Origin: Oscillospiraceae bacterium
GTDB lineage: Bacteria; Bacillota; Clostridia; Oscillospirales; JAAYXM01
Assembly: GCA_017439555.1 (NCBI GenBank)
Contig: JAFSIZ010000050.1
Location: 1 to 64,000, forward strand
Direction of reading: 5' to 3'
DNA: 64,000 bases
A program made the position numbers and the translations under genes. The notes beneath the pieces are model-generated. The model saw only the letters and a list, made by a program, of their open reading frames with translations. It made no database searches and was not told the DNA's origin. This document shows positions 30,001-61,333 of the stretch, one piece after another (positions within the stretch are counted from its first letter, which is position 1; the number at the start of each line of letters is the position of its first letter).

Positions 30001-33000
30001 CAATCGAAAAGGTGGAACACGATCTTGAAGGCCGTAAGGTTGTTGTCGGAACAACGGAAAGCGTTTCCGCAAAGGTTCTTATGAGCGACGGAAGATACCA
30101 AGGTTTCGGCCTTGCGGATAATGGCTCTGCCGATGCAAAGAATACAATCACGGTGACATCGCTTGATGAAAGCATAGCTTCTGTCTCAAATGTCACATAT
30201 GCGGTTCCGGAAACCGAAAGTGATATTCTGATTGATCTGTCGGCAAACAAGGTAGGGCAGACGAGCCTTAAGGTTGCGGTCACGATAGACGGACTTGAAA
30301 CCTACACGGAAACCATCCCCGTTAAGATCCTCCCCGTTCCCGAAATCGAAAAAGTCGAGTTTGAGGCGGAAAAGGATGAACTTCCCGCAACAAGAACCTC
30401 CAAGACCTCGTATAAGCTCATAAGCAATATCGGCGAGGAATGGACAGAGGAGACGGAAATCACCTATGAAAGCGATGATACGGCTGTTGCGGAAGTATCT
30501 GCAGACGGCGTGATAACAGGTGTTTCGGAAGGTGTTGCTGTGATAACGATCAAGGCAACATCAAAAGGAAAGACTGTTACCGCTTCCGTTACGGTTGAAG
30601 TTTTGCCTGAACCCGTCCTTGAAACACTCGTTCTTTCGTCGGATAAGGTTGTCCTTCTTCCCGGAGATTCGGCACAGGTATCTGTTGAGGGTTCGATGAG
30701 CGATCAGATTGCGGCGGATATGAGCAAGTATACGATAAAGTATAAGAGCTCAAATCCTGCGGCTGCAACCGTTGATGAAGCTACAGGTGCGATTACGGCG
30801 CTTGCGGCAGGTATGACTGTTATCAGCGTTGAAGCAAAGAACGAAGATGATGTCAAGGTTGTCGGAAAGACCAATATCACGGTTTATGATTCATACCCCA
30901 GCTTCACGGTTGATATAACAGATGCAGAGTTTCAGGGCGGAACTTGTCCTGCACCTCTCAAGACAAACGGCTATAAGATTGTCTATGAAGAATCCGACAC
31001 AACCTACTGGAGACCCTGGAAACTTGAAGATACAGGTCTTATGGTTGCATATATCGGTGTCAACGGCGGTGCGTGGCCTGCAACTTCAAAGATTTCAAAC
31101 AATGCAATAACGCTTCTTGTTGACGTGCCTTATGAAAACGACTTCAACATAAAGCTTCACGGCGGAAAGTGGTACGCCGGCGGAGTATTCTCCGTGTTCA
31201 TTGATGATCAGTATCTCGGAGATTATAATTTCTATGATCCGGCAATCGAGCGTATGACAGATGCCGGTGAAAAATCCATGAATACTGTTCACCTCACTGC
31301 AGGAGAGCATAAAATCTCCTTCAGAACAAGAATCAAATACCGCTACAACTCCATGGTAACCCTCGGCACAATCAAGTTTGACCCCGTTGCGGCTTCAGGA
31401 ACAACATATAAGCAGATGTCTTATGAAATTCCGTCGGAAATTGCAATCGGCGAAAAGATTGAAGCAAGCGTGTTTGCTGAGATGACAGACGGAAGCGCTC
31501 TCCATTTCGGTATCAAAAACGACGGAAGCGCAGATACGGAGAATTCCGCAAGTGCTGTGTCTCTCAATTCCGATCTTCTTTCGGTTTCGGATTTCACAAG
31601 CTACACGATCGGTAAGACAGGAAAGCTTCCCTTCACATTGACGGGTGTCAAAGCAGGCGATGCTGAGATAAAGCTTGGCGTTAATGTCGGCGGCGTTCCT
31701 GCAGAAGAGATTGTCAAAGTTAAGGTTGTGAATGACCCGATAGCATCCGTTAAGGCAGGAACTGTTGCAGAGGAAGTCTTCCTCGGCGATATTGCAGTTC
31801 TCGAAGGCGAAGTAAAGCTTGCAAGCGGAAGAATTCTCGGAAAAGACAACACGAACATAACCTATAAATCTTCCGATGAAAGCGTCGCAACGGTTTCGGG
31901 AAATCTTCTCACAACCGTAGCACTCGGAAAAACAACAATTACCGCAACCGCTGTCTTCAACGGCGTTGAGAAGTCCTGCGACTTTATAGTCGAAGTTCTT
32001 CCCGAGGGTATGACGGATATCACCGTCACGAGCGGCGGAAGCCCGAGAATCCGTCTTACGGATGATGAAAGCGATAAATATCCGCTCTTTGTCAATGCTA
32101 CAACGAATCTCGGAAACGAGCTTGATCTTTCCGATGCCGAAATAACGGCAGTTGCCCTCACTCCAGAGATTGCGGAGATGAGCTGGGAATGCTATCCCGT
32201 TCTCAACGGAACGTTTGATAACTATATCCGTCCCGTAAGCGAGGGAACGGCAAAGTTTGAAGTCACCGTCAAGGTTGACGGAAGAATAAGAACAAAGGTT
32301 GTCGAGCTTCCGGTAGTCAAGGCAAAAACCGAAGCAAGCCTTATGACAGAAGAAAAGCGCGATATTGTAAGAGAGAATATTTCGAAATACAGCTGGGCAA
32401 AGTCATCGGCTCAGGCGTATATCGACAGAGCGGACAAATATGTTGCTCACCTTGATGAAATATATGCGCTCATCGCATCTCAGGAAGTTCCCAGAAGCTT
32501 TGCGGTAGGTGGGGAAGGCGACCCTGCAATGTATTACTGCCGCTATTGCGGAGAAAACCTCCAGCTTGAATACGGCGGCACGCCTTGGGTACACGATTCA
32601 ATCAACAAACCCTGGAAGATTCAGTGCCCTGATTGTAAGAACTATTTCCCGACAAATGACTTCGAAAGCTTTTATAAGCTCGGTCTCAACGAATACGGCG
32701 AATTTATCTATCAGGATGCTCTTGCAAGACACGCAGAGCTTTTCGGAAATCCCGAAGCAACACCGGGCTCGAGAGAGTTCTATGGCTATGGTAAGGGTTA
32801 TCTCAGAAATGAGCTCTACGGAAATCTTGAAAATGTCGAAACGCTCAACTGCGGACAGGGACTCCGCCCGGGTGAGAGCGCAGAGACGTGGGGCGTTGAT
32901 GACGGTTATGGTTATGTGCCCTATGACGAAAACGGAGAGCCGTATAAATCCGGAACGGTTGTAGAGCGCCACACCTATATTGCAGAATTTATGCACTATG

Positions 33001-36000
33001 GCGTATACGGCCAGCTCAAGGCAAACGACAACGGCTCGGTATATTATGAGGCAGTAAGAAACTGCTCCTATGCATATTTCTACACGGGAGACAAGAAATA
33101 CGGAAGAGTCGCGGCTGTTCTTATCGACAGACTTGCAGATTTTTATCCCGGATTTGATATCTCTGTGTTCGGAGACAATGTCTGGAACTCGGACGGCGGC
33201 TCGAACAAGGGAAAACGCCTCGGATGTATCTGGGAATGCAGTATCATCGACACCGATACAGTCGGCTATGATATGGTATTTGACCTCTATGACGATCCGC
33301 AGGTCATAAAGATGATTCAGGAAAAGAAGGCGCAATACGGAAGCCGCTATTCCAAACAGACCGGCGCACAGATTCGCCAGAACATCGAGGATAACCTCAT
33401 AAGAACAGTTCTTCAAGAAGTTCGCAACCGCAAGATTTTCGGCAACTTCGGTATGTCACAGAGCTCAACTGCAAATGCGGCAATTATTCTCGATTCCTTC
33501 CCCGAAACGGCAGAGTGGATAGACTATCTCCTCGCCCCGGGCTGGGTAAACGCAGTTCCCGTTATCGGCGGCGGTGTTGACGAAGTTCTCATCGAAAAGA
33601 TTTGTGCGGACGGACACAGTAACGAAGCCTCAGACTATGGTCTTCTCTGGATGAGCGGTATGCGCCAGGTCGCAGATGCTCTTTCCGAATATAAGAAATA
33701 TGAAGCGGCAAACCTCAATGCCCATCCGAAATATCAGCAGATGTATTATGCTCTCATTCCGCTCTATGCGGCAAAGAGCTATTCGCCGCAGATAGGTGAC
33801 GGCGGAAACACTGCCGACCTCTCGCATTGGCTCACCTACGGAACAGCGACAACTGCATATAAGATCACGGGAGACAAGGTGTTTGCTCAGCTTGCATATA
33901 TGCTCAACGGCAATTCCACACAGAACCTTCGTTATGGAATAACCGAGAAGGATCCTGAGCGTCTTGCAAAAGAAATTCAGGAAATTGTGGATAAGTACGG
34001 AACGGTTTCTCTTGATTCCGATATCCAGACAGGCTTCGGTTATGCAATTCTCCGCGACGGTCATTATTTTGACGGCACGGTTACAAACGAAACGGCATCC
34101 GAAACAACGAGAAACGTGTGGATGTATTTCGGAAGCAACGGCGGTCACGGCCATAAGGATTCCTTGAACCTCGGTATGACGGCATTCGGTCTCAACTTCC
34201 TGCCCGAGCTCGGATATCCGGAGAACACGGGAAGTGATCCGAACCGCGTACAGTGGGTAAACAACACGATTTCCCATAACACGGTTGTTGTCAATGAAAA
34301 GAGACAGGATGAGGAAGTCGAAGTTCGCGGCAAAGTCAAGCATTTTGACGATGCAGGTCAGGTTCAGGTTCTTGATGTTGAGAGAAATGAAGTATACCCG
34401 GATGCGGATATTTATCGCAGAAGCGTTGTTATGATAAATATCGACGACGCAAATTCCTATTATGTCGACTTGTTCCGTGTACTCGGCGGTGATAGCCATA
34501 TCTACAGCTTCCATGCACAGAGTAACGAAATTGCGGAAACTGCAGGTCTCGAGCTTATTCCGCAGGTAGATGAGAACGGAAACTATAAGGGAACATATGC
34601 GGGAATTGACAGTGAATACGGAAATGACCCGAAGACGAATCCGAATTCATGGAATTATGAGACTATGTACCCGATGGGCTATACGTGGCTTGAAAATGTA
34701 GACCGCGATGAAAATCCGGATGAGAAGTTTGAGATTGACTTCGCAATCAAGGATTTCACCAAAGCAATCAAGGATTCAAAGAATCTTCGTCTCAGAATGA
34801 CGATGCTCAACGGCGCAAACATCCGCGACGGCGCAACTTCAAATGTTGCAATAATGGACGGTTATGCTCCGCGTATGGCACAGAACAAGAATATCGATAA
34901 GCTCAAATATGTCCTTATTGAAAACGAAAATAAGGACGGAGCTCTTGACACGGTATTCACAACGGTTCTCGAACCGTATAAGGGAGAAAGAACGATCAAG
35001 TCAGTTGAAGAGCTTGAAACCGAGATTGCAAGCGGCAAGGAAAAGAAGAAAGATGCTTCCCGAGCAGTCAAGGTCACACTTGCAAGCGGCAGGGTTGACT
35101 ATATCTTCTATGCAACAAACAATGCAGTTACCTACAAGGTAACCGATGGCGAACTTGAGCTTTCCTTCCGCGGATTTGTCGGCGTATATTCCCTCAGCAA
35201 TGGAAATAACACATATAAATATGTCATCGACGGCGATATCATCGGTGAAGCTGTGGAGACAAAGGCTGCAATTGTCGGAACTGTCAGAAACTTCACAAAA
35301 GAGCTTTCTGCAGAAAATACGATAGAGATTTCAACGGAAGAAGCAGTAAGCGATGAAGAGCTCGCATCTCTTGCAAACCGCGTTGTTATCATCGACAATG
35401 AGTCGGGAATGCGCGACGGAGCATATAAGATTCTCTCCGCAGAGCGCAACGGCGAAAACATCGTTCTCAACACGGGCAGAGTATCGATGATAAGAAAGTA
35501 TGTCGATATGTACAAGCCGGAGCTTGGCTATGTATATACAATAGCTGCAGGTCAGGAAGTAACTATTCCGTTGTCGATGAGTGATGACCACGCACCTGTA
35601 TTCGATGCTGTTGCGGATAATCTTTCGACGAGTGCCGGAAGCGTTATAAGTGTAGACCTCAATGCGGTAAGTGATATCGAAGGTGTAGATGTAAGCTACA
35701 GTGAGGAAAGCTTGCCGAGAGGTGCAACTATAGACGAAAACACAGGTGTGCTCACATGGAAGCCGACAGCTTCGCAGGTTGGTAACAACCATATTGCAGT
35801 AAACGCAACCGATTCAGACGGCAGACGCAGCACAGTTCACTTCATAATTGCTGTCTATGGTTCAACAACAGGTGCAGGCTCACAGACACCGAGTGCACCT
35901 TCGACTCCGAGTGAGCCTTCAACCCCGTCAATACCCTCAACACCGAGCACTCCGGGTGGTTCCGGCGGTGCAGGCGGCGGTGGCGGCGGTGGAGCTGCTC

Positions 36001-36641
36001 CGGCTCCGTCAACACCGTCAGACGACAAGACGGATGTAGGGACCGATCTCCCGGGCGGTCCGTCAAATGACGACGGCACAACCTCAGGTGATGATGCAAA
36101 AGTGCGTTTTGTTGACCTTGGCGCTCACGCATGGGCGGCAGATGCAATCAATGCTCTTGCTGATGAAGGAATAATAAAGGGCACAAGCGAGAACACATTC
36201 TCACCTGCTGCAAACATCACGAGAGCTGACTTTGCGCTTCTCCTTGTCCGCGCTTTCAAATTGACAAGCGAGAATACAGAGAACTTCGCAGATGTAGCGG
36301 CTTCCGACTACTTTGCAGCTGAGCTTGCGATTGCAAGAAATACAGGTATTGTAAACGGCATTGGCGATAATAAGTTTGCGCCGAGAAATACAATCACACG
36401 TCAGGATATGATGACGATTGTATACAGAGCACTCACGGCACTTGAGGTTGAACTTGAGACGGGGGATGTTGTATATCCTGATTTTGAAGCTGTTGCAGAA
36501 TATGCAAAGGATTCAGTCAAGGCGCTCATTGCAAGCGGCCTTGTAAACGGAAAGAGCGGCAAGATTGCTCCGACTGATTACACAACACGCGCTGAAGTCG
36601 CAGTTCTCATAAAGAGAATTCTCGTCTATACACAGAGATAG
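27048..36641 (+). CDS. Giant SLH-anchored surface polysaccharide lyase (heparinase II/III family)
   Basis: The 3197-residue protein has a signal peptide (1-24), four beta-rich modules (about 30-305, 325-545, 548-810, 811-980; the last recurs at 1281-1450) and Big_2 Ig-like domains (about 1098-1188, 1188-1281, 1565-1650). The catalytic part (about 1760-2700) opens with a helical toroid that contains two Cys-pair knuckles (CRYCGENL, CPDCKNYFP). It continues with the heparinase II/III block GGHGHKDSLNLGMTAFG and NNTISHNTVVVNEKR, carrying the expected His and Asn residues. A cadherin/He_PIG-like domain (2832-2938), a Pro/Ser then Gly-rich linker and three SLH domains (3018-3197) follow. It should sit on the S-layer and cleave a uronic-acid polysaccharide by beta-elimination. 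AAAGGAGG precedes ATG. Substrate unknown. Confidence 0.88.
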   Translation: MKKRILSLLLAICMTVSLIPSISAEVVADDTRETLTYLINSDSFAVAYNDLRYVDAHIAYDDGWLATTPNMDTGMNFVTCISWKKQLTKKYDGSGIVTCDPYTVLDLNKTSPYQIENHIHNGPSVGMNMDNYALYATLKSSYYGKANPADRPYLAVRISVPAAGKYRIATWSKYSQIAGYGNTKYGSAMKVYFGKAPADPDSSVTNLKEYVSSNINANLGSYNFIGWHDTSNDGSATPGEYIAFEPKETDSDIIEVPSAGEYYIVFMADSDSLTRNPNKNSDSYQTQWFALSGIKLSPVKDKPEAPVVPEEPSYPEDEAAPTNTDDKYVFNAASHNYYALTNTFFAENGGYSSCITLADTNTKISSRWAVVNQASGSDNKLDINNYHWTVNVPDTATPDYNGTAGTVRTVVFELRTTKEGSFTPTLTFQTENSGAKYDVYLIEKPEIPWQANVYVPYGDAAIRNNVAALPASAKIGNFDAYGSGESKTVTFDKVSVKAKSNYYLIFNLNGANAKWKRDIHSTKSRYFATLKPQSFAFASSAQTPEPIVYEINPSSYNTEVQDKYFKLQASTASVQGDLIDNCELPYVTWRTKLSGVAPLVDLSKTEGYELLGRVSLDNSPAVNAKGYQTQIRIASDAAGNYYENPNYAAHPWTGVRINVPRGGRYKLSIKNAYTFDDPVVKGVVSLGTQKNGAVKGEFDKGAVAKVYFGNNLLSVTNTSSGTVNEEAKIGDLIAVSDVVGFYDVNKLATDENTPYITDVGYIDVPKAGEYYVLFDIDKDSIEKNPKCWYRSSADFQMFLLSGITLTPVAEDEVSNLRVDLTGTNHLITDSSKPSTWSTYGWELVPGKTADVVGRRLGGALPNKLVQIFLQLQNYGGLWKDSPASQATMFTFTKYFPKAGYYSIETLGYKVSIASDAAIYVNGEYVGDYNYYEADASYAIGERKALNTIYIPEGDVEISLRNRVKNHSYGLFYPMWMEFSPSEKPAIEKVEHDLEGRKVVVGTTESVSAKVLMSDGRYQGFGLADNGSADAKNTITVTSLDESIASVSNVTYAVPETESDILIDLSANKVGQTSLKVAVTIDGLETYTETIPVKILPVPEIEKVEFEAEKDELPATRTSKTSYKLISNIGEEWTEETEITYESDDTAVAEVSADGVITGVSEGVAVITIKATSKGKTVTASVTVEVLPEPVLETLVLSSDKVVLLPGDSAQVSVEGSMSDQIAADMSKYTIKYKSSNPAAATVDEATGAITALAAGMTVISVEAKNEDDVKVVGKTNITVYDSYPSFTVDITDAEFQGGTCPAPLKTNGYKIVYEESDTTYWRPWKLEDTGLMVAYIGVNGGAWPATSKISNNAITLLVDVPYENDFNIKLHGGKWYAGGVFSVFIDDQYLGDYNFYDPAIERMTDAGEKSMNTVHLTAGEHKISFRTRIKYRYNSMVTLGTIKFDPVAASGTTYKQMSYEIPSEIAIGEKIEASVFAEMTDGSALHFGIKNDGSADTENSASAVSLNSDLLSVSDFTSYTIGKTGKLPFTLTGVKAGDAEIKLGVNVGGVPAEEIVKVKVVNDPIASVKAGTVAEEVFLGDIAVLEGEVKLASGRILGKDNTNITYKSSDESVATVSGNLLTTVALGKTTITATAVFNGVEKSCDFIVEVLPEGMTDITVTSGGSPRIRLTDDESDKYPLFVNATTNLGNELDLSDAEITAVALTPEIAEMSWECYPVLNGTFDNYIRPVSEGTAKFEVTVKVDGRIRTKVVELPVVKAKTEASLMTEEKRDIVRENISKYSWAKSSAQAYIDRADKYVAHLDEIYALIASQEVPRSFAVGGEGDPAMYYCRYCGENLQLEYGGTPWVHDSINKPWKIQCPDCKNYFPTNDFESFYKLGLNEYGEFIYQDALARHAELFGNPEATPGSREFYGYGKGYLRNELYGNLENVETLNCGQGLRPGESAETWGVDDGYGYVPYDENGEPYKSGTVVERHTYIAEFMHYGVYGQLKANDNGSVYYEAVRNCSYAYFYTGDKKYGRVAAVLIDRLADFYPGFDISVFGDNVWNSDGGSNKGKRLGCIWECSIIDTDTVGYDMVFDLYDDPQVIKMIQEKKAQYGSRYSKQTGAQIRQNIEDNLIRTVLQEVRNRKIFGNFGMSQSSTANAAIILDSFPETAEWIDYLLAPGWVNAVPVIGGGVDEVLIEKICADGHSNEASDYGLLWMSGMRQVADALSEYKKYEAANLNAHPKYQQMYYALIPLYAAKSYSPQIGDGGNTADLSHWLTYGTATTAYKITGDKVFAQLAYMLNGNSTQNLRYGITEKDPERLAKEIQEIVDKYGTVSLDSDIQTGFGYAILRDGHYFDGTVTNETASETTRNVWMYFGSNGGHGHKDSLNLGMTAFGLNFLPELGYPENTGSDPNRVQWVNNTISHNTVVVNEKRQDEEVEVRGKVKHFDDAGQVQVLDVERNEVYPDADIYRRSVVMINIDDANSYYVDLFRVLGGDSHIYSFHAQSNEIAETAGLELIPQVDENGNYKGTYAGIDSEYGNDPKTNPNSWNYETMYPMGYTWLENVDRDENPDEKFEIDFAIKDFTKAIKDSKNLRLRMTMLNGANIRDGATSNVAIMDGYAPRMAQNKNIDKLKYVLIENENKDGALDTVFTTVLEPYKGERTIKSVEELETEIASGKEKKKDASRAVKVTLASGRVDYIFYATNNAVTYKVTDGELELSFRGFVGVYSLSNGNNTYKYVIDGDIIGEAVETKAAIVGTVRNFTKELSAENTIEISTEEAVSDEELASLANRVVIIDNESGMRDGAYKILSAERNGENIVLNTGRVSMIRKYVDMYKPELGYVYTIAAGQEVTIPLSMSDDHAPVFDAVADNLSTSAGSVISVDLNAVSDIEGVDVSYSEESLPRGATIDENTGVLTWKPTASQVGNNHIAVNATDSDGRRSTVHFIIAVYGSTTGAGSQTPSAPSTPSEPSTPSIPSTPSTPGGSGGAGGGGGGGAAPAPSTPSDDKTDVGTDLPGGPSNDDGTTSGDDAKVRFVDLGAHAWAADAINALADEGIIKGTSENTFSPAANITRADFALLLVRAFKLTSENTENFADVAASDYFAAELAIARNTGIVNGIGDNKFAPRNTITRQDMMTIVYRALTALEVELETGDVVYPDFEAVAEYAKDSVKALIASGLVNGKSGKIAPTDYTTRAEVAVLIKRILVYTQR

Positions 36642-39599: not shown

Positions 39600-39624
39600 A
39601 AATTATTAAGAGAGGAAGATGAAT

Positions 39625-40959
39625 ATGTTAAGAGCAGGTATGGCCCGTGCGGATATCACACCGCCGAAGGGGCTTGAGCTTGCGGGATACCCTCATTATC
39701 CGAGATATAATGAAGGTGCCCACGATCCGCTTATGGCGGCTTGTATGTATATTGAAAACGAAGATGCAAAAATTGCGATGGTAACCCTCGATTTGCTTTT
39801 CTTCTCCAAAAAGCATACGACTGAGGTGCGTCGCCGCGTAGAGGCAGAGTGCGGCATCCCGGGAAAGAATGTTATGATCAGCTGTTCACACACCCATTCA
39901 GGTCCGTGGGCTTCGGGAAGGCTTGATATCGAAAGCCTTGAAGCAGGAAAAGAGCAGCCGAAGGAATATGTCGAAGATCTCATTTCAAAGATAGTCTCGA
40001 TTATAAAGGAAGCAAAAGAGGGTGCTTTCCCGGCATCGTTCGGTGCAGGAGTTGCTCTCTGTGGCGCTGAATCAGGTGTCGGTGGCAACCGCCGCATTCC
40101 GGGTGGCCCCCATGATCCGCTCGTCAGCGTTATGGCTGTCAAGGATGCAGAGGATAAGATCCGCGGTATTTTTGTCAACTATACGCTTCATCCGACATTC
40201 ATTCACGAATGGAGCAACGTCTGCACAGCAGATTATCCTTGCTATCTCAGAATGCAGCTTGAAGAGCTTGAACCGGGCGTTATCGTCGGATTTGCACAGG
40301 GCGCATCGGGCAATCAGTCCTCGCGCTACTATCGCCAGGGCGAGAGCTATGATGAGGCAGAGCGCGTAGGCCGCATTCTCGGCCGTGCCGCTCATTCCGT
40401 TCTTGCGAAGATGGAATGGACAAACGATATGCCGATAGCTGTCGCAAATTCTGAGCTTCCGTTTGAGCTTCGCGATTTCGGAACAGAAGAGGAGCTTATG
40501 GAAAAGGTTGCTCATGATGAAGCAGTCTATAAAGAGCTCTATGCAAAATACGGTGACTCAACAAACCGTGAGGAATATTATCTCTGGCAGAATGCAAACC
40601 TCAAGCTTCTCGGCTCTGAGGATCAGCTCGGCTATATCAGAATGCAGAAAAAGGGCATCAAGATCGAGCTTCTGGATGATGAAGGCCCGATGGAGATCCA
40701 GATTATAAAGCTTGGCGGAACTTGCGTTGTCGGTATTCAGGGAGAGGCATTTGTCGAATTTGCGCTCTATGTAAAGGCGATGGCAGGATTTGGTATGGTC
40801 GTGTTCAACGAGCTTACAAACGGCGTTCTTCCGGGCTATCTCTACACACCGGAATCTCTTGTAACAGGCGGATATGAAACAGATACATCAATGCTTGGCG
40901 AAAACTTCGGTAAGCATATGGTGGAAAAAGTTCTTGAAACTATTGAAGAGGTGAAGTAA
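39625..40959 (+). CDS. Cytosolic neutral-ceramidase-fold hydrolase, paralogue 1
   Basis: This 444-residue protein is the N-terminal catalytic domain of neutral ceramidase (PF04734) alone, without a signal peptide. It starts AGMARADITPPKG. The expected metal and catalytic positions are kept: His89 and His91 in SCSHTHSGP, His189 in YTLHPTF, Ser228 in GASGNQSSRYY, Glu374 in QGEAFVEF and Tyr417 in TGGYETD. Known family members cut the amide of ceramide outside the cell; a cytosolic copy in a sugar operon probably acts on another N-acyl or ester compound. The ATG at 39625 is preferred over 39619 because of ribosome-site spacing and alignment with its paralogues. It is coupled to the NagA-like gene by a 1-base gap. 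Confidence 0.85.
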   Translation: MLRAGMARADITPPKGLELAGYPHYPRYNEGAHDPLMAACMYIENEDAKIAMVTLDLLFFSKKHTTEVRRRVEAECGIPGKNVMISCSHTHSGPWASGRLDIESLEAGKEQPKEYVEDLISKIVSIIKEAKEGAFPASFGAGVALCGAESGVGGNRRIPGGPHDPLVSVMAVKDAEDKIRGIFVNYTLHPTFIHEWSNVCTADYPCYLRMQLEELEPGVIVGFAQGASGNQSSRYYRQGESYDEAERVGRILGRAAHSVLAKMEWTNDMPIAVANSELPFELRDFGTEEELMEKVAHDEAVYKELYAKYGDSTNREEYYLWQNANLKLLGSEDQLGYIRMQKKGIKIELLDDEGPMEIQIIKLGGTCVVGIQGEAFVEFALYVKAMAGFGMVVFNELTNGVLPGYLYTPESLVTGGYETDTSMLGENFGKHMVEKVLETIEEVK

Positions 40960-42121: not shown

Positions 42122-43459
42122 ATGTTAAAGGCTGGAATGTCGAAAAGAGATATCACACCGCCTCTCGGCATCGGGCTTACGGGGTATCCCCATTATCCGA
42201 GACCGAACACAGGCGCACATGACCCGCTTTGGGCGGCTTGTATGTATGTGAGCGACGGCAATTGCGAAGCTGCGCTTGTAACGCTTGATATTCTCTATTA
42301 TTCAAAAAAACACGTTGCTGAAATCCGCAGGAGAGTAGAGGAAGAGTGTGGTATTCCCGGAAGAAATATAATGATAAGCTGTTCACACACTCATTCCGCA
42401 CCTCTTTGCTATACGCCGTTCACTATGGACGACCTCGAGGGCGGAGATTCCGGTCAGCCGAGGGAATATGTACAATTTACAATCAAAGCAATTACTGAGG
42501 CGATTGAAGAGGCGAAAGCAAATGCGTTTCCGGCAAAGTTTGGCGCAGATGTTGCGATGTGCGGCGCTGAATCAGGTGTCGGAGGAAACAGGCGCATACC
42601 GGGAGGCCCCCACGATCCTCTTGTCAGTGTAATGGCTGTTAAAGATATGGATGACAAAATCCGCGGTGTATATGTCAACTATTCGTTGCACCCGACTTTT
42701 ATCCACGAATGGAGCACGCTTTGCACTGCTGACTATCCGTATTATACACGCCTTGAGATCGAAGAAAATGAAGGTAATCCTGTTGTTTGCTTTGCTCAGG
42801 GCGCATCGGGCAACCAATCGAGCCGCTACTACAGAAACGGTGAAAGCTATGACGAAGCTGAACGTGTCGGAAGAGCGATAGGTAAGGCGGCAAGACTTGC
42901 GCTCTCGAAAATGGATTGGAAATCAGAGCTCTCGATTGATGTGGTAAGCGAAGATATTCCGTTCGAAATCCGTGATTTCGGAACCATTGAAGAGCTTGAA
43001 GAAAAGTGCGCCCGTGATACAGCGGTCTACGAAGAGCTTTATGCAAAATACGGCAATTCGACAAACCGCGATGAATATTATCTCTGGCAGAACGCAAATC
43101 TCAAACATCTCGGCTCAGAAAATCAGCTTGCCTTTGTCAAGTTCATTTCCAAAGGCGGAAAGGTTCCTGCGTTTGAGGAAGAAGCACCTGCTGAGATTCA
43201 GATCATCAGAATCGGCGATGCTTGCATTGTCGGTGCACAGGGCGAGATATTCATTGAGTATGCGCTGTATATAAAGGCAATGGCAGGATTTAAGACAGTT
43301 GTATTCAATGAGCTTGCAAACGGTATCCTTGCAGGTTACCTTTACACACCGGAATCGCTTGTAACCGGAGGTTATGAAACAGACACCTCAATGATGGCGG
43401 CAAGCTTCGGTAAATCCATGGTAGATAAAGCCTTAGAGCTTATAGAAAAAGTAAAATAA
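42122..43459 (+). CDS. Cytosolic neutral-ceramidase-fold hydrolase, paralogue 2
   Basis: The 445-residue protein is closely related to paralogue 1 along its whole length, with shared blocks such as GAESGVGGNRRIPGGPHDP, LHPTFIHEWS and QGASGNQSSRYYR. The His-Thr-His (SCSHTHSAP), serine and GGYETDTSM sites are conserved. A notable difference is the loop after the first metal site (LCYTPFTMDDLEGGDSGQPR), close to the likely substrate cleft, so the two copies may have different acyl or sugar specificities. GGAGG lies 7-8 bases ahead of the ATG. There is no signal peptide. Confidence 0.85.
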   Translation: MLKAGMSKRDITPPLGIGLTGYPHYPRPNTGAHDPLWAACMYVSDGNCEAALVTLDILYYSKKHVAEIRRRVEEECGIPGRNIMISCSHTHSAPLCYTPFTMDDLEGGDSGQPREYVQFTIKAITEAIEEAKANAFPAKFGADVAMCGAESGVGGNRRIPGGPHDPLVSVMAVKDMDDKIRGVYVNYSLHPTFIHEWSTLCTADYPYYTRLEIEENEGNPVVCFAQGASGNQSSRYYRNGESYDEAERVGRAIGKAARLALSKMDWKSELSIDVVSEDIPFEIRDFGTIEELEEKCARDTAVYEELYAKYGNSTNRDEYYLWQNANLKHLGSENQLAFVKFISKGGKVPAFEEEAPAEIQIIRIGDACIVGAQGEIFIEYALYIKAMAGFKTVVFNELANGILAGYLYTPESLVTGGYETDTSMMAASFGKSMVDKALELIEKVK

Positions 43460-51979: not shown

Positions 51980-54226
51980 ATGGTTTCTGTAATTAAAAAC
52001 GGCGTTTATTTAAAAGACGGTTGCTTGCTCTCAATGAAGGATGCAAGCGTGCTCGGGCTTGATGCTCCGAGCGAAGCAAAGAAGAAAACTATGGCATATT
52101 CCATATTGAAGGAGCATAACACCTCCGACACTATGGAAAACCTCAGAATCAAATTCGATGCAATGGCATCACACGACATTACATATGTCGGAATTATCCA
52201 GACTGCGCGCGCATCGGGGCTTGAGAAGTTTCCGTTGCCCTATGTGCTCACAAACTGCCACAACAGCCTCTGCGCTGTCGGCGGCACAATAAACGAGGAC
52301 GACCATATCTTCGGCCTTTCCGCAGCAAAGAAATATGGCGGTGAATTTGTGCCTGCACATCAGGCGGTTATCCATCAATATATGCGTGAGCGCTATGCCG
52401 GCTGCGGCAAGATGATTCTCGCATCCGACTCCCACACACGCTATGGTGCTCTCGGCTCAATCTCAATCGGCGAGGGCGGCCCTGAGCTTGCGCGTCAGCT
52501 TCTTTCAAAGACATATAATATCGCATATCCGGAGGTTGTCTGTGTATATCTCGAAGGTGCTCCGCGTCCCGGCGTCGGCCCGCAGGATATTGCGATTGCA
52601 ATAATCGGCGCAGTATTCAAGGATGGCGCAGTAAAGAACAAGATTATGGAATTTGTCGGCCCGGGCATTGCAAACCTGAGCATGGATTTCAGAAACGGCA
52701 TAGATGTTATGACGACAGAGACCTCGTGCCTCTCGTCCATCTGGGAAACTGACAGGACAACGTGTGAGTTCCTCACAGTTCACGGAAGACCGGAGGATTA
52801 TAAGCCGCTTCATCCGGGCGCCGGTGCATATTATGATTGCGCTGTGCGTGTCGATCTCTCTGAGATTGAGCCGATGATCGCGCTTCCGTTCCACCCGTCA
52901 AATGCATTCAGAATTTCCGAGCTCAAGAAAAACCTCGGCGATATTCTCGCTCAGTGTGACCGCGATGCAAAGGAAATGCTCGGCATTGATGACAAGAAGG
53001 TATCACTTCTCAATAAAATCCGAAATGGCAAGCTCTATGTTGATCAGGGCTTTGTCGGCGGTTGCTCCGGCGGTCTGTTCCAGAATATCCATAGAGTGCG
53101 CGATATCTTAAAGGGCAATACGACCGGTGACGGCGCATTCTGGCTCTCGGTTTATCCGGCAAGCACTCCGATGTCTATGGAGCTTATGCGCGACGGAACT
53201 CTTGCAGACCTGACGGCATCGGGCGTCAGCATCCGTTCCTGCTTCTGCGGTCCGTGCTTTGGCGCGGGCGATGTTCCTGCAAACGGTGCGCTTTCAATAC
53301 GCCACGCAACGCGCAACTTCCCGAACCGCGAAGGCTCAAAGCCGGGCGATGGGCAGATATCATATGTTGCGCTTATGGATGCGCGTTCAATTGCCGCAAC
53401 AGCGGCAAACGGCGGCGAGCTGACAAGCGCATTTGAGCTTGAAAATATTCCGCAGGATCCGCAGGATGAAAAGTATGCATATGATGCAACTCCATATAAG
53501 AGCCGTATCTACTATGGCGTTGGCAATCCTCAGCCTCAGGAGGAATTGAAGTTCGGACCGAATATCGCAGACTGGCCGAAGATGATAGGAATGACAGATA
53601 ACCTCCTCATATCTGTTGCAAGCGCGATTTACGATCCTGTCACAACAACGGACGAGCTTATCCCGTCGGGTGAGACATCTTCCTACCGTTCAAATCCGAT
53701 AAAGCTTGCATCCTTTGCACTTTCAAGAAAGGATCCCGAGTATGTCGGGCGTGCAAAGGCTGTCTATGCAGCAGAGCTTGCGCGCCGCGAAGGAGACAAG
53801 AACGCATTTGATATGTTTGCAATCGACGGTATCGATCTTTCAAAGACCTCTGTCGGCACGGCTGTCTTTGCGCTCAAGCCCGGTGACGGCTCTGCGCGTG
53901 AGCAGGCAGCTTCCTGCCAGAGGGTTCTCGGCGGCGTTGCAAACATCGCAAGAGAATATGCAACAAAGCGTTATCGTTCAAATGTTGTAAACTGGGGAAT
54001 GCTTCCGTTCATCCTCGACGATGCTGACAACAGCGGAATCGAAGCAGGCGACCTCATCTATATCGAGGGCATCCGCGATATTCTTCTCGGCGACGGCGAA
54101 GAGGTCAAGGCAAGCCTCATAAAGAGTGGTGATAAGAAGGATATTACACTCCGGCTCCCGGCACTCACACGAGAAGAGCGCGATATCATCCTCGCAGGAT
54201 GTCTTATTAATTTCTATTCAAAATAA
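51980..54226 (+). CDS. Aconitase-superfamily hydratase (YbhJ-like)
   Basis: The 748-residue enzyme has the aconitase iron-sulfur cluster cysteines: one in [11 protein letters not shown] (about residue 359) and two in [11 protein letters not shown] (about 419-425). It also has substrate motifs [24 protein letters not shown] (about 154-177) and a C-terminal swivel domain (about 620-748). The length and the opening resemble E. coli YbhJ, a predicted hydratase of unknown substrate, rather than citrate-cycle AcnA/B. It has its own promoter and a strong AAAGGA site. It probably dehydrates or hydrates a hydroxy acid. A 26-base piece of its 3' end is duplicated near 60.16 kb. Confidence 0.85.
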
Positions 54227-56284: not shown

Positions 56285-56342
56285 AAACGTATTTCGCAAC
56301 CAAACACAAGGCGACAACTCTGCTTTGTTGGCATAAAACAAT

Positions 56343-56375
56343 AAAAACGCTGAACTTTTCGTTCAGCGTTTTTTT
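56343..56375. terminator. Bidirectional terminator between the DUF4838 gene and the LacI gene
   Basis: A perfect 13-bp stem (AAAAACGCTGAAC and complement, 5-base loop) and seven T residues. The LacI stop codon is inside the right arm. A near-identical copy lies at 60194-60227. Confidence 0.92.
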
Positions 56376-57331
56376 ATCTCTGTTGATTTCCTGAATATGA
56401 CTTCGGGCAGTACGGTAATCCGCTTTTCCGATATTGTGCCGGAAAGATATTCCATAATAGCGTCTGCTGTTTCGTTGCAGACCTTATCAAGATGCGTGTT
56501 TATGCTTGAGAGCGGAGGATTCAAATATCCCGAGCCGCCGATATCGTTCATTCCCATAACGGCAATATCTTCGGGAACTCTCAGGCCGTGCTCGCAAATA
56601 CAGCTTATTGCGCCCGTTGCCATATGATCATAGGCACAGATAATGGCACGCGGATATTTTCCGTTTTCAAAAAATTTTTCCATCGCATCAAAGCCGCCTT
56701 CCTCAAAACGGAGATCGGTCACGCTTATGAGTAAGCTATCCGTTTTGCCGAGCTTTTCTTCGATTACACCGCACACCATTGCAAGCTTTGTGTCGGTGTT
56801 GGTTTCTCCGATAAAGCCGATGTCAGTGACTCCGTTTTCAACAAAATAGTCAACTGCTTCACGAATGCACGGAATAAAATTACTTGTAACAGAAATTACG
56901 CCGCTGTTGTATGCCGAGTCGATTGTTGCGACCGGAATTTCCATATCCTCGGCGACCTTTGTTTTTCCGTTTATGATGATAATACCGTCAACGCTTGTGT
57001 AGCGGTTGTAATATTCAAGAAGCTCTGCCTCCGTTGATTCGGAAAAGTCTGTTGAGGCGACACATATTTCACAGTTGTATTCCGAAAGTCTCTTTTGAAT
57101 GAAGTAGAGTGCGACGGAATAGTAGCGGCTGCGAAATTCGGGGCAGATAACCGCAATGACGAGCTTTGGGTATTTTGCTTTATAGAATTTTTTGAAGCAC
57201 CCGAGTTTCTTTGCTGCCTCGAATATCATCTCACGCGTTTCGGGATTTACTTCACTGCTCATCGAAAACGCCTTTGAAACAGTCGAGACTGAAACGTGTG
57301 TGAGCTTTGCAAGCTTACTTAATGTTATCAT
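56363..57331 (-). CDS. LacI-family transcriptional regulator
   Basis: The 322-residue protein has the LacI helix-turn-helix and hinge (ITLSKLAKLTHVSVSTVSKAF at residues 2-22; SSEVNPETREMIFEAAKKLG). A periplasmic-binding-type sensor domain follows (about 60-320; VDYFVENGVTDIGFIGETNT, RAIICAYDHMATGAISCI, PEDIAVMGMNDIGG). The ATG at 57331 starts the protein exactly at the HTH; the longer frame would add 20 residues that overlap its promoter. It is divergent from ceramidase-fold paralogue 3, with a perfect 19-bp palindrome between them, so it most likely represses that gene and itself. The effector is presumably a sugar. Confidence 0.93.
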   Translation of the reverse strand: MITLSKLAKLTHVSVSTVSKAFSMSSEVNPETREMIFEAAKKLGCFKKFYKAKYPKLVIAVICPEFRSRYYSVALYFIQKRLSEYNCEICVASTDFSESTEAELLEYYNRYTSVDGIIIINGKTKVAEDMEIPVATIDSAYNSGVISVTSNFIPCIREAVDYFVENGVTDIGFIGETNTDTKLAMVCGVIEEKLGKTDSLLISVTDLRFEEGGFDAMEKFFENGKYPRAIICAYDHMATGAISCICEHGLRVPEDIAVMGMNDIGGSGYLNPPLSSINTHLDKVCNETADAIMEYLSGTISEKRITVLPEVIFRKSTEIKKR

Positions 57332-57409: not shown

Positions 57410-57418
57410 CGTTTTTGG

Positions 57419-57446
57419 TTGACTTGTCGGCTGTATCAGATATAAT
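57419..57446 (+). promoter_or_regulatory. Promoter of ceramidase-fold paralogue 3
   Basis: TTGACT and a perfect TATAAT are 16 bases apart, 31 bases ahead of the ATG. Confidence 0.75.
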
Positions 57447-57477
57447 GAAGGCAGACAGAAAAGAAAGGATGATATTT

Positions 57478-58815
57478 ATGTTGAAAGCAGGTATGTCAAA
57501 GCGCGATATAACACCGCCGCTCGGTTTGCCGCTCGTCGGATATCCGCATTATACAAGAGCAAACGAGGGAGCACACGATCCGCTCCTGTCATCGGTTATG
57601 TATATCTCAAACGGTGAGTGTGAAACAGTTCTTGTCACGCTCGATGTCCTCATTTTCTCAAAGAGACACGTTGCCGAAATCCGCAGACGCGTTGAGAAGG
57701 AATGTGGAATTCCGGGTAAGAATATTATGATAAGCTGTACGCATACCCATTCGGGCCCACTTACATTCTCTCCGTGGGATCTTGAAAGTATCGTATCGGG
57801 GAACACAGACCAGCCGTGGGAATATATTGAAGATGTTATCTCAAAGACAACAGAAGCCATTGTTGAAGCTAAGAAAAATGCATTTGCGGCATCGTTTACC
57901 TCAGGTGCAGCAATGTGTGGAGCAGAGTCGGGCGTTGGCGGAAACCGCCGCATCCCGGGTGGACCTCACGATCCGTTTGTCGGCGTGCTTGCAGTAAAGG
58001 ACGAAACGGGAAGGGTGCGCGGTATGTATGTAAACTATGCCCTTCATCCGACGTTTATCCACGAATGGAGCAACGTCTGCACATCTGACTATCCATATTA
58101 TGTAAGGCTCGAGCTCGAGGAGCAGGAGAAGGATATTGTTGTCTGCTTCGGTCAGGGTGCATCGGGCAACCAGTCAAGCCGCTATTATCGCAACGGCGAA
58201 AGCTATGATGAGGCAGAGCGCGTCGGGCGTGCAATCGGCCGTGCAGCGCATACAGTGCTTGACAATGCAGAGTGGAAGACAGATATGCCGATAAAGGTTG
58301 TAAGCGAGGAAATTGAGTTCGTTATCCGCGAGTTTGCGTCAGTTGAAGAGCTTGAGGCACAGTGTGCACACGATACTGCGGTATATAAAGAGCTCTATGC
58401 AAAATACGGCGATTCCGAAAACCGTGATGAATATCTGCTCTGGCAGAATGCAAACCTCAAATGCCTCGGTTCGGAAAATCAGCTGCAGTATGCAAAGCTC
58501 AGAATGCAGGGTATCAGAATACCTGTTGTCGAGGAAGAAAACCCTGCAGAAATTCAGGTTATCCGTCTCGGAGATGCCTGCGTTGTCGGTGTTCCGGGTG
58601 AAAATTTTGTTGAATATGCTCTCTATATAAAGGCGATGGCAGGCTTTAAAACCGTTATTTACAACGAGCTTGCAAACGGTGCGCTTGCAGGATATCTTTG
58701 CACACCCGAATCGATGGTGCTCGGTGGCTATGAAACAGACACCTCGTGGATGGATGTGCAATATGGAAAAAATATGGTCAACAAGGCAATCGAGCTTATT
58801 GAAAACGTGAAGTAA
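57478..58815 (+). CDS. Cytosolic neutral-ceramidase-fold hydrolase, paralogue 3
   Basis: The 445-residue protein matches the two operon paralogues along its length: KAGMSKRDITPPLGLPL at the start, SCTHTHSGP (His-Thr-His), LHPTFIHEWSNVC, GASGNQSSRYYR and GGYETDTSW. No signal peptide is present. The ATG at 57478 has GAAAGGATG 6 bases upstream and begins as the paralogues do. It stands under LacI-type control, separate from the operon copies, and is followed by a terminator and a sugar isomerase gene. As with its relatives, ceramide is an unlikely substrate for a cytosolic enzyme in this setting. Confidence 0.85.
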   Translation: MLKAGMSKRDITPPLGLPLVGYPHYTRANEGAHDPLLSSVMYISNGECETVLVTLDVLIFSKRHVAEIRRRVEKECGIPGKNIMISCTHTHSGPLTFSPWDLESIVSGNTDQPWEYIEDVISKTTEAIVEAKKNAFAASFTSGAAMCGAESGVGGNRRIPGGPHDPFVGVLAVKDETGRVRGMYVNYALHPTFIHEWSNVCTSDYPYYVRLELEEQEKDIVVCFGQGASGNQSSRYYRNGESYDEAERVGRAIGRAAHTVLDNAEWKTDMPIKVVSEEIEFVIREFASVEELEAQCAHDTAVYKELYAKYGDSENRDEYLLWQNANLKCLGSENQLQYAKLRMQGIRIPVVEEENPAEIQVIRLGDACVVGVPGENFVEYALYIKAMAGFKTVIYNELANGALAGYLCTPESMVLGGYETDTSWMDVQYGKNMVNKAIELIENVK

Positions 58816-58823
58816 AAGATGAA

Positions 58824-58864
58824 AGCACCCCTTTGAAACTTAATGTTTCAAGGGGGTGCTTGCT
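58824..58864 (+). terminator. Terminator after ceramidase-fold paralogue 3
   Basis: AGCACCCCTTTGAAAC pairs with GTTTCAAGGGGGTGCT around a 5-base loop (one G-U or bulge). The T run is short. The CCTTTGAAAC/GTTTCAAGG core also appears in the hairpin at 48868-48902. Confidence 0.75.
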
Positions 58865-59001
58865 TTGAGCGAAGGAGGGGGCAGAAATGTTCTGAGAAGT
58901 ATATTGCTTGCGGAAATCAGCAAAATTTCATAAGTTTATATTGAGATTGACTCTGTTGTCCGGATAAATATTGTGGTATAATAAAAAAGAGGTGGCTTTT
59001 T

Positions 59002-59862
59002 ATGAAGATTGGAACAATGATAAAATATGGAAACAGCGCGGATAAAACAGTATCAATAACAGAGATCGAGCGCAAGTTCCGCGAGCTTTCCGAATGTGGG
59101 ATAGATAATTGTCAGCTTTGCAGCTGGGCGCCTGTGTTGTGGACGGATGAAAACGCAGAAAAAATAAACGGCTTTTCGGAAAAATATAATGTAAAAATAT
59201 CATCCTTCTGGTGCGGATGGGAAGGGCCGATGAGATGGGATTTTTATGAAGGTCAATATTCGCTCGGACTTGTTGCTCCGGAATACCGCGAAATGAGAAT
59301 TAAAAACCTCTGTGACGGTGCGGATTTTGCAAAGAAGCTCGGGGTTGTGGATGTTGCAACACATATGGGCTTCATTCCTGAAAATCCTTATGACGCAAAT
59401 TTTGTGCCGATGTGCATAGCAATACGCACTGTTGCAGAGCATCTTGAAAAGAATGGGCAGTTTCTTCTGTTTGAAACAGGGCAGGAAACTCCGGTAACGA
59501 TGCTGAGATGCTTTGAGACTGTCGGCTGCGACAATCTCGGCGTAAATCTTGATACTGCAAATCTTATTCTCTATGGAAAGGCAAATCCTGTCGATGCGCT
59601 CGATGTGTTTGGTAAATATGTTCGTGCAATTCATGCAAAAGACGGATTTTATCCGACGAACGGACATGATCTTGGCCGTCAGGTCCGCATAGGGGAGGGG
59701 AAAGTCGATTTTCATGGCGTTTTAAAAGGATTACACAAGCTCGGTTATAACGGATATGTGACTATTGAACACGAAATAGACGGTGACAACGAAAAAGAGG
59801 CGATACTCGCTGCGCGTGATTATCTTGAAAAGATTATAGCTGATGTCTGCGGAGAAAAATAA
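59002..59862 (+). CDS. Sugar-phosphate isomerase/epimerase (xylose-isomerase-like TIM barrel)
   Basis: The 286-residue protein is of the PF01261 family. It has the expected metal-site pattern across the barrel: SFWCGWEGP (about 73-81), ATHMGFIPE (His, about 118-126), LFETGQETP (Glu, about 155-163), GVNLDTANLILYGKANP (Asp, about 177-193), IHAKDGFYP (His/Asp, about 212-220) and YVTIEHEIDGD (Glu, about 252-262). Members isomerise or epimerise ketoses, inosose and sugar acids. A TATAAT-like -10 box (58976-58981) and GAGGTGG site precede the ATG. The context (LacI, ceramidase-fold hydrolase, GH88 relic) suggests a sugar-catabolic step. Confidence 0.88.
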   Translation: MKIGTMIKYGNSADKTVSITEIERKFRELSECGIDNCQLCSWAPVLWTDENAEKINGFSEKYNVKISSFWCGWEGPMRWDFYEGQYSLGLVAPEYREMRIKNLCDGADFAKKLGVVDVATHMGFIPENPYDANFVPMCIAIRTVAEHLEKNGQFLLFETGQETPVTMLRCFETVGCDNLGVNLDTANLILYGKANPVDALDVFGKYVRAIHAKDGFYPTNGHDLGRQVRIGEGKVDFHGVLKGLHKLGYNGYVTIEHEIDGDNEKEAILAARDYLEKIIADVCGEK

Positions 59863-59871
59863 GATGCTTAA

Positions 59872-60143
59872 AGTTATAATCGCAAGAGCTGGAGATAGTT
59901 ATCGACATAGTGAAAGGCTTTGATAAAAAACGGCAACCGATTTTGCAATTTCGATGAGACCGCAGACAGCGATTGCAGCTGCGGAGGAGTCATAGTAGAC
60001 GGGCTCTTCGGGTGCGCGGAGTTGCAAGCATATCACCTGTTTCCGGATCAAACTCAACGATAAGGTTTGAAGAGCCGTCAACGCGGATAAAGCTCTTTGC
60101 AACGGTGTCTGCGTGTGACTCTGCAATCTGTGCAAAACGAGGG
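59872..60143 (-). pseudogene. Remnant of a GH88 unsaturated glucuronyl hydrolase gene
   Basis: Read on the minus strand, one frame (about 60141-60021) gives RFAQIAESHADTVAKSFI, then VDGSSN, IVEFDPETGD and MLAT, which matches the middle of GH88 enzymes. A shifted frame (about 60016-59935) gives EEPVYYDSSAAAIAVCGLIE, the later GH88 block that holds the family's conserved SSAAAIA. The family normally has a long stretch between these blocks (containing a GSxWSRGQAW motif). Here they are joined directly with a frameshift, and both ends of the gene are missing. GH88 enzymes remove the unsaturated uronic acid left by polysaccharide lyases. The remnant is certainly non-functional. Confidence 0.75.
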
Positions 60144-60154
60144 CCATCCTGCAC

Positions 60155-60290
60155 GGATGTCTTATTAATTTCTATTCAAACAATTAAAACGATAAAAAAC
60201 GCTGAACGAAAACGTTCAGCGTTTTTTATCGTTGTTGATTTTTCGAATATGACATCGGGTAGTGTTGTAATGTGTTTTTTCAACAGAGTT
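60155..60290. pseudogene. Scar of joined gene ends: aconitase-family tail and LacI-family tail
   Basis: Bases 60155-60180 are an exact 26-base copy of 54197-54222, the 3' end of the aconitase-family gene. Bases 60194 to about 60275 are a diverged copy of 56343 to about 56425, the terminator and last codons of the LacI gene on the minus strand (residues like TLPDVIFEKST). In the intact locus these ends flank the DUF4838 gene, which is missing here. So this looks like a decayed duplicate of that locus with its middle lost. Confidence 0.65.
60194..60227. terminator. Terminator after the AraC gene at 60.3 kb (copy of the LacI terminator)
   Basis: AAAAAACGCTGAACG and CGTTCAGCGTTTTTT form a 15-bp perfect stem with a 4-base loop. 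It lies downstream of the minus-strand AraC gene and was apparently inherited with the decayed LacI tail. Confidence 0.85.
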
Positions 60291-61227
60291 ATTTCAGTTG
60301 TTGTTTCTGACTTGAAGTCGGTGTGTATTCAATGGGGGGATGCGTAGCTCTTTCGGGGGATGTAAAAATATCAATGCAAAATTTTGAGGGGGAAACACCA
60401 AAATGTCTTGTGAAAAGCCGTGTGAGATTTGTGCGATCTCCAAGACCGCAAAGCTTTGCAACATTGTCAAGGAGTATTTTTGAATGATGTTGGCTTAAAA
60501 GCAGGTTGCGCACGGCTGTAAGTCTGCGGGAAAGCAGATATTGAGAAAAGGTGAGATTTGTTATTTCTTTAAAATGTGTGGTGAAAGTGCTGCGAGACAT
60601 TCCGGCTATTGGGCAAACACTATCTATTGTGAGCTTTTTTTGATAGTTGAAATCTATACAATTCACAGATCTTTTTATTGCGCGAACGCGCTCTAAAACA
60701 GCTTGTCTGTTATACTCGACACGCTCTTTTGTGCATAGCAACGTGAAAATCTTACCTAACAATACAGCAGTTTTTTTCGGAGACAGATTTTCTTTTTTTG
60801 AGAATTCAACGGTTAACCCCTCAAAGAGAGCTTTTGCATCATCCTTTTCACTCTCTTTGAAATTATAAATCTGAGGAATGGCGTAATTCTCAAAATAAGA
60901 GAGTCTTCCGCAGTATGGGAAAAAACTATATCCATTATCCGACATAAAGTTATCAATAAAAGAAATAAAGATAACAATCGGAGTGTCATCTGATTGGGAA
61001 AGATCCGTTATGTGATCGATAAAGGGGAGAATGACGGAACAGGAATCGGGCTCCTGAATATATTTTTTGCCGTTGATTGTATGATGAAGAGTACCTGACT
61101 TAACATAGCATAGTTGGATGTGATCATGCATATGCAGATAGGCCTTTGCTCGCTGATATTGTGTTGAAATTCTTATGGGTAGATTCTCGAAATGCTGCGT
61201 AGACACAATAGGAGGAACAATCTTCAT
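60289..61227 (-). CDS. AraC-family transcriptional regulator
   Basis: The 312-residue protein has a cupin-like sensor (about residues 20-110, KAYLHMHDHIQLCYVKSGTL and SVILPFIDHIT). The C-terminal AraC domain (about 195-295) contains LTIDSVCPIAGMSRSTFTTHF, and the second helix-turn-helix DNVAKLCGLGDRTNLTRLFTRHFGVSPSKF. The tail beyond it is about 20 residues of low complexity. It is divergent from the large surface protein at the right edge, which it probably controls. A perfect consensus promoter lies ahead. The stop codon falls next to the decayed LacI remnant. Confidence 0.9.
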   Translation of the reverse strand: MKIVPPIVSTQHFENLPIRISTQYQRAKAYLHMHDHIQLCYVKSGTLHHTINGKKYIQEPDSCSVILPFIDHITDLSQSDDTPIVIFISFIDNFMSDNGYSFFPYCGRLSYFENYAIPQIYNFKESEKDDAKALFEGLTVEFSKKENLSPKKTAVLLGKIFTLLCTKERVEYNRQAVLERVRAIKRSVNCIDFNYQKKLTIDSVCPIAGMSRSTFTTHFKEITNLTFSQYLLSRRLTAVRNLLLSQHHSKILLDNVAKLCGLGDRTNLTRLFTRHFGVSPSKFCIDIFTSPERATHPPIEYTPTSSQKQQLK

Positions 61228-61270
61228 AAATCAGAGTTCACCTCAATTTCGGAAAGCGATTATTGAATAA

Positions 61271-61299
61271 ATTATATCATTGTGTACAAGCCCTGTCAA
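61271..61299 (-). promoter_or_regulatory. Consensus promoter of the AraC gene at 60.3 kb
   Basis: On the minus strand a perfect TTGACA and a perfect TATAAT are separated by 17 bases, about 43 bases ahead of the start codon. Confidence 0.85.
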
Positions 61300-61333
61300 A
61301 TGAAAAAATCATTCGATTTGCAACGTTTTTTTC

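Follow-up and report, generated by a model that had tools for sequence, protein, structure and literature searches.

The DNA between a xylose-isomerase-like gene and an AraC-type regulator gene near the end of the window raises the question of whether a GH88 gene has decayed there and, if so, whether its decay tells of a changed pathway. The window is the whole stretch of DNA analysed, 64,000 nucleotides of contig C169, which belongs to a genome assembly of 2.68 Mb (200 contigs, 84% complete). We compared it with the rest of its own genome (G000), with four genomes of the same genus (G001–G004, hereafter the sisters) and with the related genome SIG445. On these comparisons, a minus-strand strip of the window is, with a probability that we put at about 0.9, the non-functional remnant of a once complete GH88 gene of the unsaturated glucuronyl hydrolase type.

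Two blocks match sister GH88 genes

GH88-derived DNA spans about 59935–60161 on the minus strand and consists, as a preliminary description of this DNA had reported, of two blocks in different frames (Table 1), with FDPETGD in the frame counted from 60289 and DSSAAAIAVCGL in the frame counted from 60288. Both blocks match sister GH88 genes, which supports GH88 ancestry by homology. Specifically, block 1 matches the G004 gene as DNA over 148 nt (80.4% identity, E 2.6e-35) and block 2 over 86 nt (77.9% identity, E 3.2e-15), while residues 169–220 of the G004 GH88 protein match 60011–60166 (75% identity, E 5.8e-20) and residues 275–308 match 59926–60027 (68% identity, E 2.5e-9). The interval first given for the remnant, 59872–60143, does contain GH88 DNA, but it stops short of the true span, and its first ~60 bp belong to a decayed Gfo/Idh/MocA gene.

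Sister proteins and DNA were used as queries because a Pfam hmmscan of the remnant pieces alone gave no GH88 match, even at E values up to 10. PF07470 is too insensitive for such fragments, since the complete sister GH88 protein itself scores just 34.9 bits against a curated cut-off of 26.6; NCBIfam assigned no family to the GH88 proteins of G004 and of contigs C166 and C175 of the own genome (n = 3). The preliminary description had held that a profile search without similarity to GH88 would speak against its reading; the Pfam search of the pieces did come back empty, but the matches to sister protein and DNA hold.

Relative to the G004 gene, 179 nt are absent between the blocks and the reading frame is broken. 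The missing stretch includes WSRGQAW, within the motif GQGYxSGSSWSRGQAW that complete genes carry there, in agreement with the earlier proposal that the blocks are joined across a deleted middle. In the complete G004 gene the 7-mer TCCGCGC occurs twice, at nt 651 and nt 830, bounding the stretch that is missing. Because this 7-mer stands at both ends in the sister gene and only once in the fossil, the internal deletion probably arose by slippage between these short direct copies. At the junction, the repeat measures 7 nt in G004, 5 in the C166 gene, 4 in G002, 3 in G001 and 2 in SIG445; the 7-bp repeat, whole only in G004, fits best with the closest relatives and is presumed for the fossil's own ancestor.

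Table 1. Positions of the remnants, junctions and intact genes discussed in the text
Feature	Position	Strand	Basis
Intact aconitase-like hydratase gene, 6 kb upstream	51980–54226	+	NCBIfam NF008503, 1194 bits
3′ end of aconitase-like gene, parent of the 26-bp copy	54197–54222	+	Sequence identity
Intact xylose-isomerase-like TIM-barrel gene	59002–59862	+	Pfam PF01261, E 3.2e-30
Gfo/Idh/MocA 5′-end remnant (MLKVxIA), directly after isomerase	59864–59884	+	Same place as G002 gene P0001
Gfo/Idh/MocA 3′-end remnant, QELEIVIDIVKGF	59882–59921	+	Match to G002 gene nt 864–903
GH88 remnant block 2, RAPEEPVYYDSSAAAIAVCGLIEIAKSV, in a frame other than block 1	59935–60020	−	Equivalent to G004 gene nt 830–915
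Deletion junction, single TCCGCGC left	60014–60020	−	Two copies in G004 gene
GH88 remnant block 1, TSVQDGPRFAQIAESHADTVAKSFIRVDGSSNLIVEFDPETGDMLATPR	60014–60161	−	Equivalent to G004 gene nt 510–657 (sister gene 1143 nt)
Codon CTT (Leu) in place of active-site His (UGL His193 equivalent)	60062–60064	−	Alignment of compared genes
Exact 26-bp copy of aconitase-like gene 3′ end	60155–60180	+	26/26 identical
Strong bidirectional terminator-like hairpin, 21-bp perfect arms	60188–60233	+	Between convergent isomerase and AraC genes
Probable LacI-type regulator gene tail remnant, LPDVIFEKSTTIK	60222–60279	−	Likeness to intact LacI-type tail
Intact AraC-type regulator gene	60289–61227	−	Divergent from heparinase-II/III-type SLH lyase starting at 61413

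Active-site positions are lost or changed

Among the functional residues of UGL, PMC4528949 names Asp149, His193, Asp88 and Phe46. The G004 GH88 protein aligns with UGL (1vd5) over 54–370 (E 2.8e-65), and the structure matches listed for it are UGL/GH88-type chains only; the related family GH105 is marked by a gate loop and by rhamnogalacturonyl activity. The equivalents of Asp149, Asp88 and His193 are present in this protein, as Asp at residues 159 and 102 and His at residue 203 (counted from the alignment). Both active-site Asp positions fall in the lost 5′ part of the remnant, and the His, which is found in nine of nine compared genes (including one truncated where its contig stops), is replaced by Leu. 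With these three positions lost or changed and the frame interrupted, the strip does not pass as a working GH88 gene. Set against the complete orthologs of its relatives, it instead has the marks of a bacterial pseudogene, namely a frameshifting 179-nt deletion, the loss of both ends of the gene (509 nt at the 5′ side and 228 nt at the 3′ side) and a changed active site.

Scraps of other genes adjoin the GH88 blocks

The GH88 scrap is one of several gene scraps within about 430 bp. On one side lies what is left of a Gfo/Idh/MocA gene. The isomerase has a 76% ortholog in G002, where a complete Gfo/Idh/MocA gene (P0001) directly follows; in the window, the same place holds two short ends of such a gene, which overlap by GCA at their joint, with about 840 nt deleted in between. 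The 3′ piece agrees with the G002 gene at 24 of 40 nt, and no other offset does better. In an anchored test, framed after the match had been seen, none of 20000 shuffles and none of 945 other ORFs did as well, while a looser version without anchoring gave weak evidence, being equalled by 15 of 2000 shuffles and by 9 of 774 other templates. Isomerase-like and Gfo/Idh-like genes are adjacent at seven places among the matches listed (G000:C164, G001:C40, G002:C78, G003:C20, G003:C58, G004:C104 and G004:C122). Because such genes adjoin at those seven places, the Gfo/Idh loss removes the usual partner of the isomerase, and this is probably a more telling change for the function of the cluster than the loss of GH88.

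On the other side, the GH88 blocks meet a duplicate of the aconitase-like gene's 3′ end. With up to three mismatches allowed, a search of the 2.68-Mb assembly places the 26-bp sequence at 54197 and 60155 and nowhere else, and at the joint the 7 bp GGATGTC are common to the copy and to GH88. The LacI-type remnant is 78% identical over 58 nt to 56370–56427, the tail of the intact LacI-type gene at 56363. As a separate observation, the two 26-bp direct repeats bracket a cluster of 5.9 kb, which is not seen at that place in the sister genomes.

Complete GH88 genes and their neighbours

The preliminary description had proposed looking for an intact GH88 gene elsewhere in the genome, and a GH88 search of five genomes found two in the own genome, on contigs C166 and C175, as well as a fragment at the edge of contig C140. 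The C166 gene is 91% identical to the G004 gene and the C175 gene 65%, while the remnant pieces are 79% identical to the G004 copy, 78% to C166 and 62% to C175. A change of pathway, as had been suggested, does not follow from the fossil, because two complete GH88 genes survive and the loss of a redundant copy suffices as an explanation. Furthermore, the loss of this GH88 copy should not be taken to mean that unsaturated-uronide use is gone, because the two complete copies lie near lyases.

Specifically, a heparinase-II/III-type lyase is found near both complete genes of the own genome. On C166, lyase, glucuronyl esterase and GH88 follow one another on one strand; on C175, the order is GH88 (−), AraC (−), lyase (+), which is the gene order around the fossil itself, with its lyase at 61413. 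In a homology scan of 187 long frames at up to 17 loci, lyases were found only at these two loci (L013 on C166, L017 on C175) and at the isomerase locus of G002 (L052). No lyase homologue was found in the available flanks, unequal in length, of the GH88 genes of the five related genomes (the sisters and SIG445), and two of the four sisters (G003, G004) carry GH88 just downstream of the aconitase-like gene with no lyase beside it. The statement that this enzyme normally follows a polysaccharide lyase is thus partly borne out: as to proximity it is fair for the own genome, but it does not hold generally in the genus.

Two giant SLH-domain proteins, of 3197 and 2556 aa and each with a heparinase II/III-like domain, are encoded at 27048–36641 and from 61413 onward (on C169 to 69083), and relatives of these giants are encoded on C166 (2529 aa) and C175.

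Along the G004 locus come, in turn, an aconitase-like gene (+), Gfo/Idh (+), GH88 (−) and a probable Hsp33 gene (+), the last of which is present in all five genomes. In G003, GH88 (−) ends 47 bp past the aconitase-like gene, whereas in G001 and G002 the GH88 and aconitase-like genes lie on separate contigs. Two G003 contigs, C82 (L048) and C6 (L016), share an exact 49-bp end; if this overlap is a true join, it suggests that G003 carries three GH88 genes in tandem. What lies beyond the conserved aconitase-like gene is different in each of the five genomes G000–G004: it is the cluster of the window in G000, a small secreted-looking ORF in G001, an ORF that is presumably SmpB-like in G002, GH88 in G003, and Gfo/Idh followed by GH88 in G004.

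Origin and mode of decay

In a tree of 228 nt, the fossil stands next to but outside the pair formed by the G004 and C166 genes, with modest support (76). We rejected the idea that the fossil derives recently from the C166 gene, as the tree groups G004 with C166 and sets the fossil apart at that support. By gene order, the parent may have been either an aconitase-linked or a lyase/AraC-linked GH88 copy, and we prefer neither. Over the same 228 nt, the fossil differs from G004 at 9, 7 and 32 sites in codon positions 1, 2 and 3, and the complete genes of G004 and C166 differ from each other at 4, 5 and 34. The differences from G004 are mostly third-position ones, which implies that coding selection acted on the fossil through most of its history and that its decay is recent.

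In our reading, several genes in the strip were cut back, chiefly through deletions with short direct repeats at their ends. Comparison with complete genes shows that the GH88 copy has undergone the 179-nt deletion at the 7-bp repeat, which shifted the frame, and lacks its 5′ 509 nt, with both active-site Asp positions, and its 3′ 228 nt, while its His is replaced; that the adjoining Gfo/Idh/MocA gene is cut down to its two ends; and that the exact 26-bp end of the aconitase gene is joined to GH88 at the 7-bp common sequence. This 26-bp piece may be a templated insertion or a duplication scar. The GH88 copy was presumably dispensable given the other GH88 genes, and any order among these events is one that we only infer. 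The GH88 remnant is a case of ordinary pseudogene erosion.

Alternative explanations

The most plausible competitor concerns the origin of the fossil, is compatible with its fossil status, and seems to us possible though unlikely. It takes the GH88 scrap as what was left when a tandem duplication, reaching from the aconitase gene end to mid-GH88, later lost most of its second unit; the GH88/aconitase joint would then mark the junction of the duplication. GGATGTC is common to GH88 and the aconitase end at the joint, in the order expected for such a junction, and a terminator and a LacI tail come next, as they do at 56334–56427; but the aconitase piece is identical at 26 of 26 positions and the LacI piece at just 78% of 58 nt, a difference that fits one event poorly. 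We give distinctly less weight to the idea that the 26-bp repeats at 54197 and 60155 flank a 5.9-kb island inserted at the aconitase 3′ end in the manner of integrative elements. The repeats are exact and occur nowhere else in the assembly, and genes between them are without close sister relatives (LacI at most 28%, DUF4838 at most 52%). However, an integrase was not found among the genes examined between the repeats, no second aconitase tail lies downstream in the four sisters (334 to 12097 nt examined), a 76% relative of the isomerase occurs in G002, and the position of GH88 next to aconitase in G003 and G004 points to a resident gene. The broader proposal that catabolic genes of this genus recurrently enter and erode at the aconitase-like gene's 3′ end, with the cluster an integrase-less island attached there and GH88 and Gfo/Idh eroded at its edge, is likewise improbable.

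An assembly artefact, a chimera of GH88, Gfo/Idh, aconitase and LacI-type reads, might be suspected in a metagenome assembly this fragmented, with several joints inside 430 bp. It is very improbable, because the GH88 pieces diverge by ~20% from the closest complete copies and, at the identities given above, did not derive from any of the complete copies compared; moreover, the internal deletion joint sits on a direct repeat, and the Gfo/Idh ends lie at the place of the sister's complete gene. Hardest of all to credit is a remnant that still functions as a short ORF, a frameshifted protein or an RNA. An 82-codon frame does run through it at 60147–59899 on the minus strand, but only block 2 is read in frame there, the active-site Asp positions are missing and the His is altered, and an Rfam scan of 58800–61300 matched no family.

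Relation to known systems

Compared with UGL (PDB 1vd5 and 2fuz, with streptococcal relatives such as 3ani), to which its complete sister protein is clearly related, the fossil is reduced to about 76 of 380 codons, spread over two frames, with all three active-site residues absent or changed. Among the matches listed in a literature search for 'unsaturated glucuronyl hydrolase' and 'pseudogene', neither term stands in a title or abstract. In the account that Kuo and Ochman 2010 (PMC2916853) give of Salmonella, young pseudogenes are removed fast by deletion, and the fossil is similarly a broken gene under erasure by deletions; unlike that work, ours concerns a single case in an uncultured gut lineage, without a strain series for dating. 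For Haloquadratum walsbyi, PMC3119063 describes deletions at direct repeats of 4–20 bp between two strains, and the deletion endpoints of the fossil likewise lie at short direct repeats, although here they are read from one genome and its sisters rather than from a two-strain comparison.

The remnant matters little beyond annotation, where gene callers should not name the 82-codon ORF, but it is a clean case in which comparison with sister species reveals where the deletions in gene remnants begin and end. Elsewhere in the window, three proteins, encoded at 39619–40959, 42122–43459 and 57415–58815, carry PF04734, the alkaline-ceramidase N-terminal domain.
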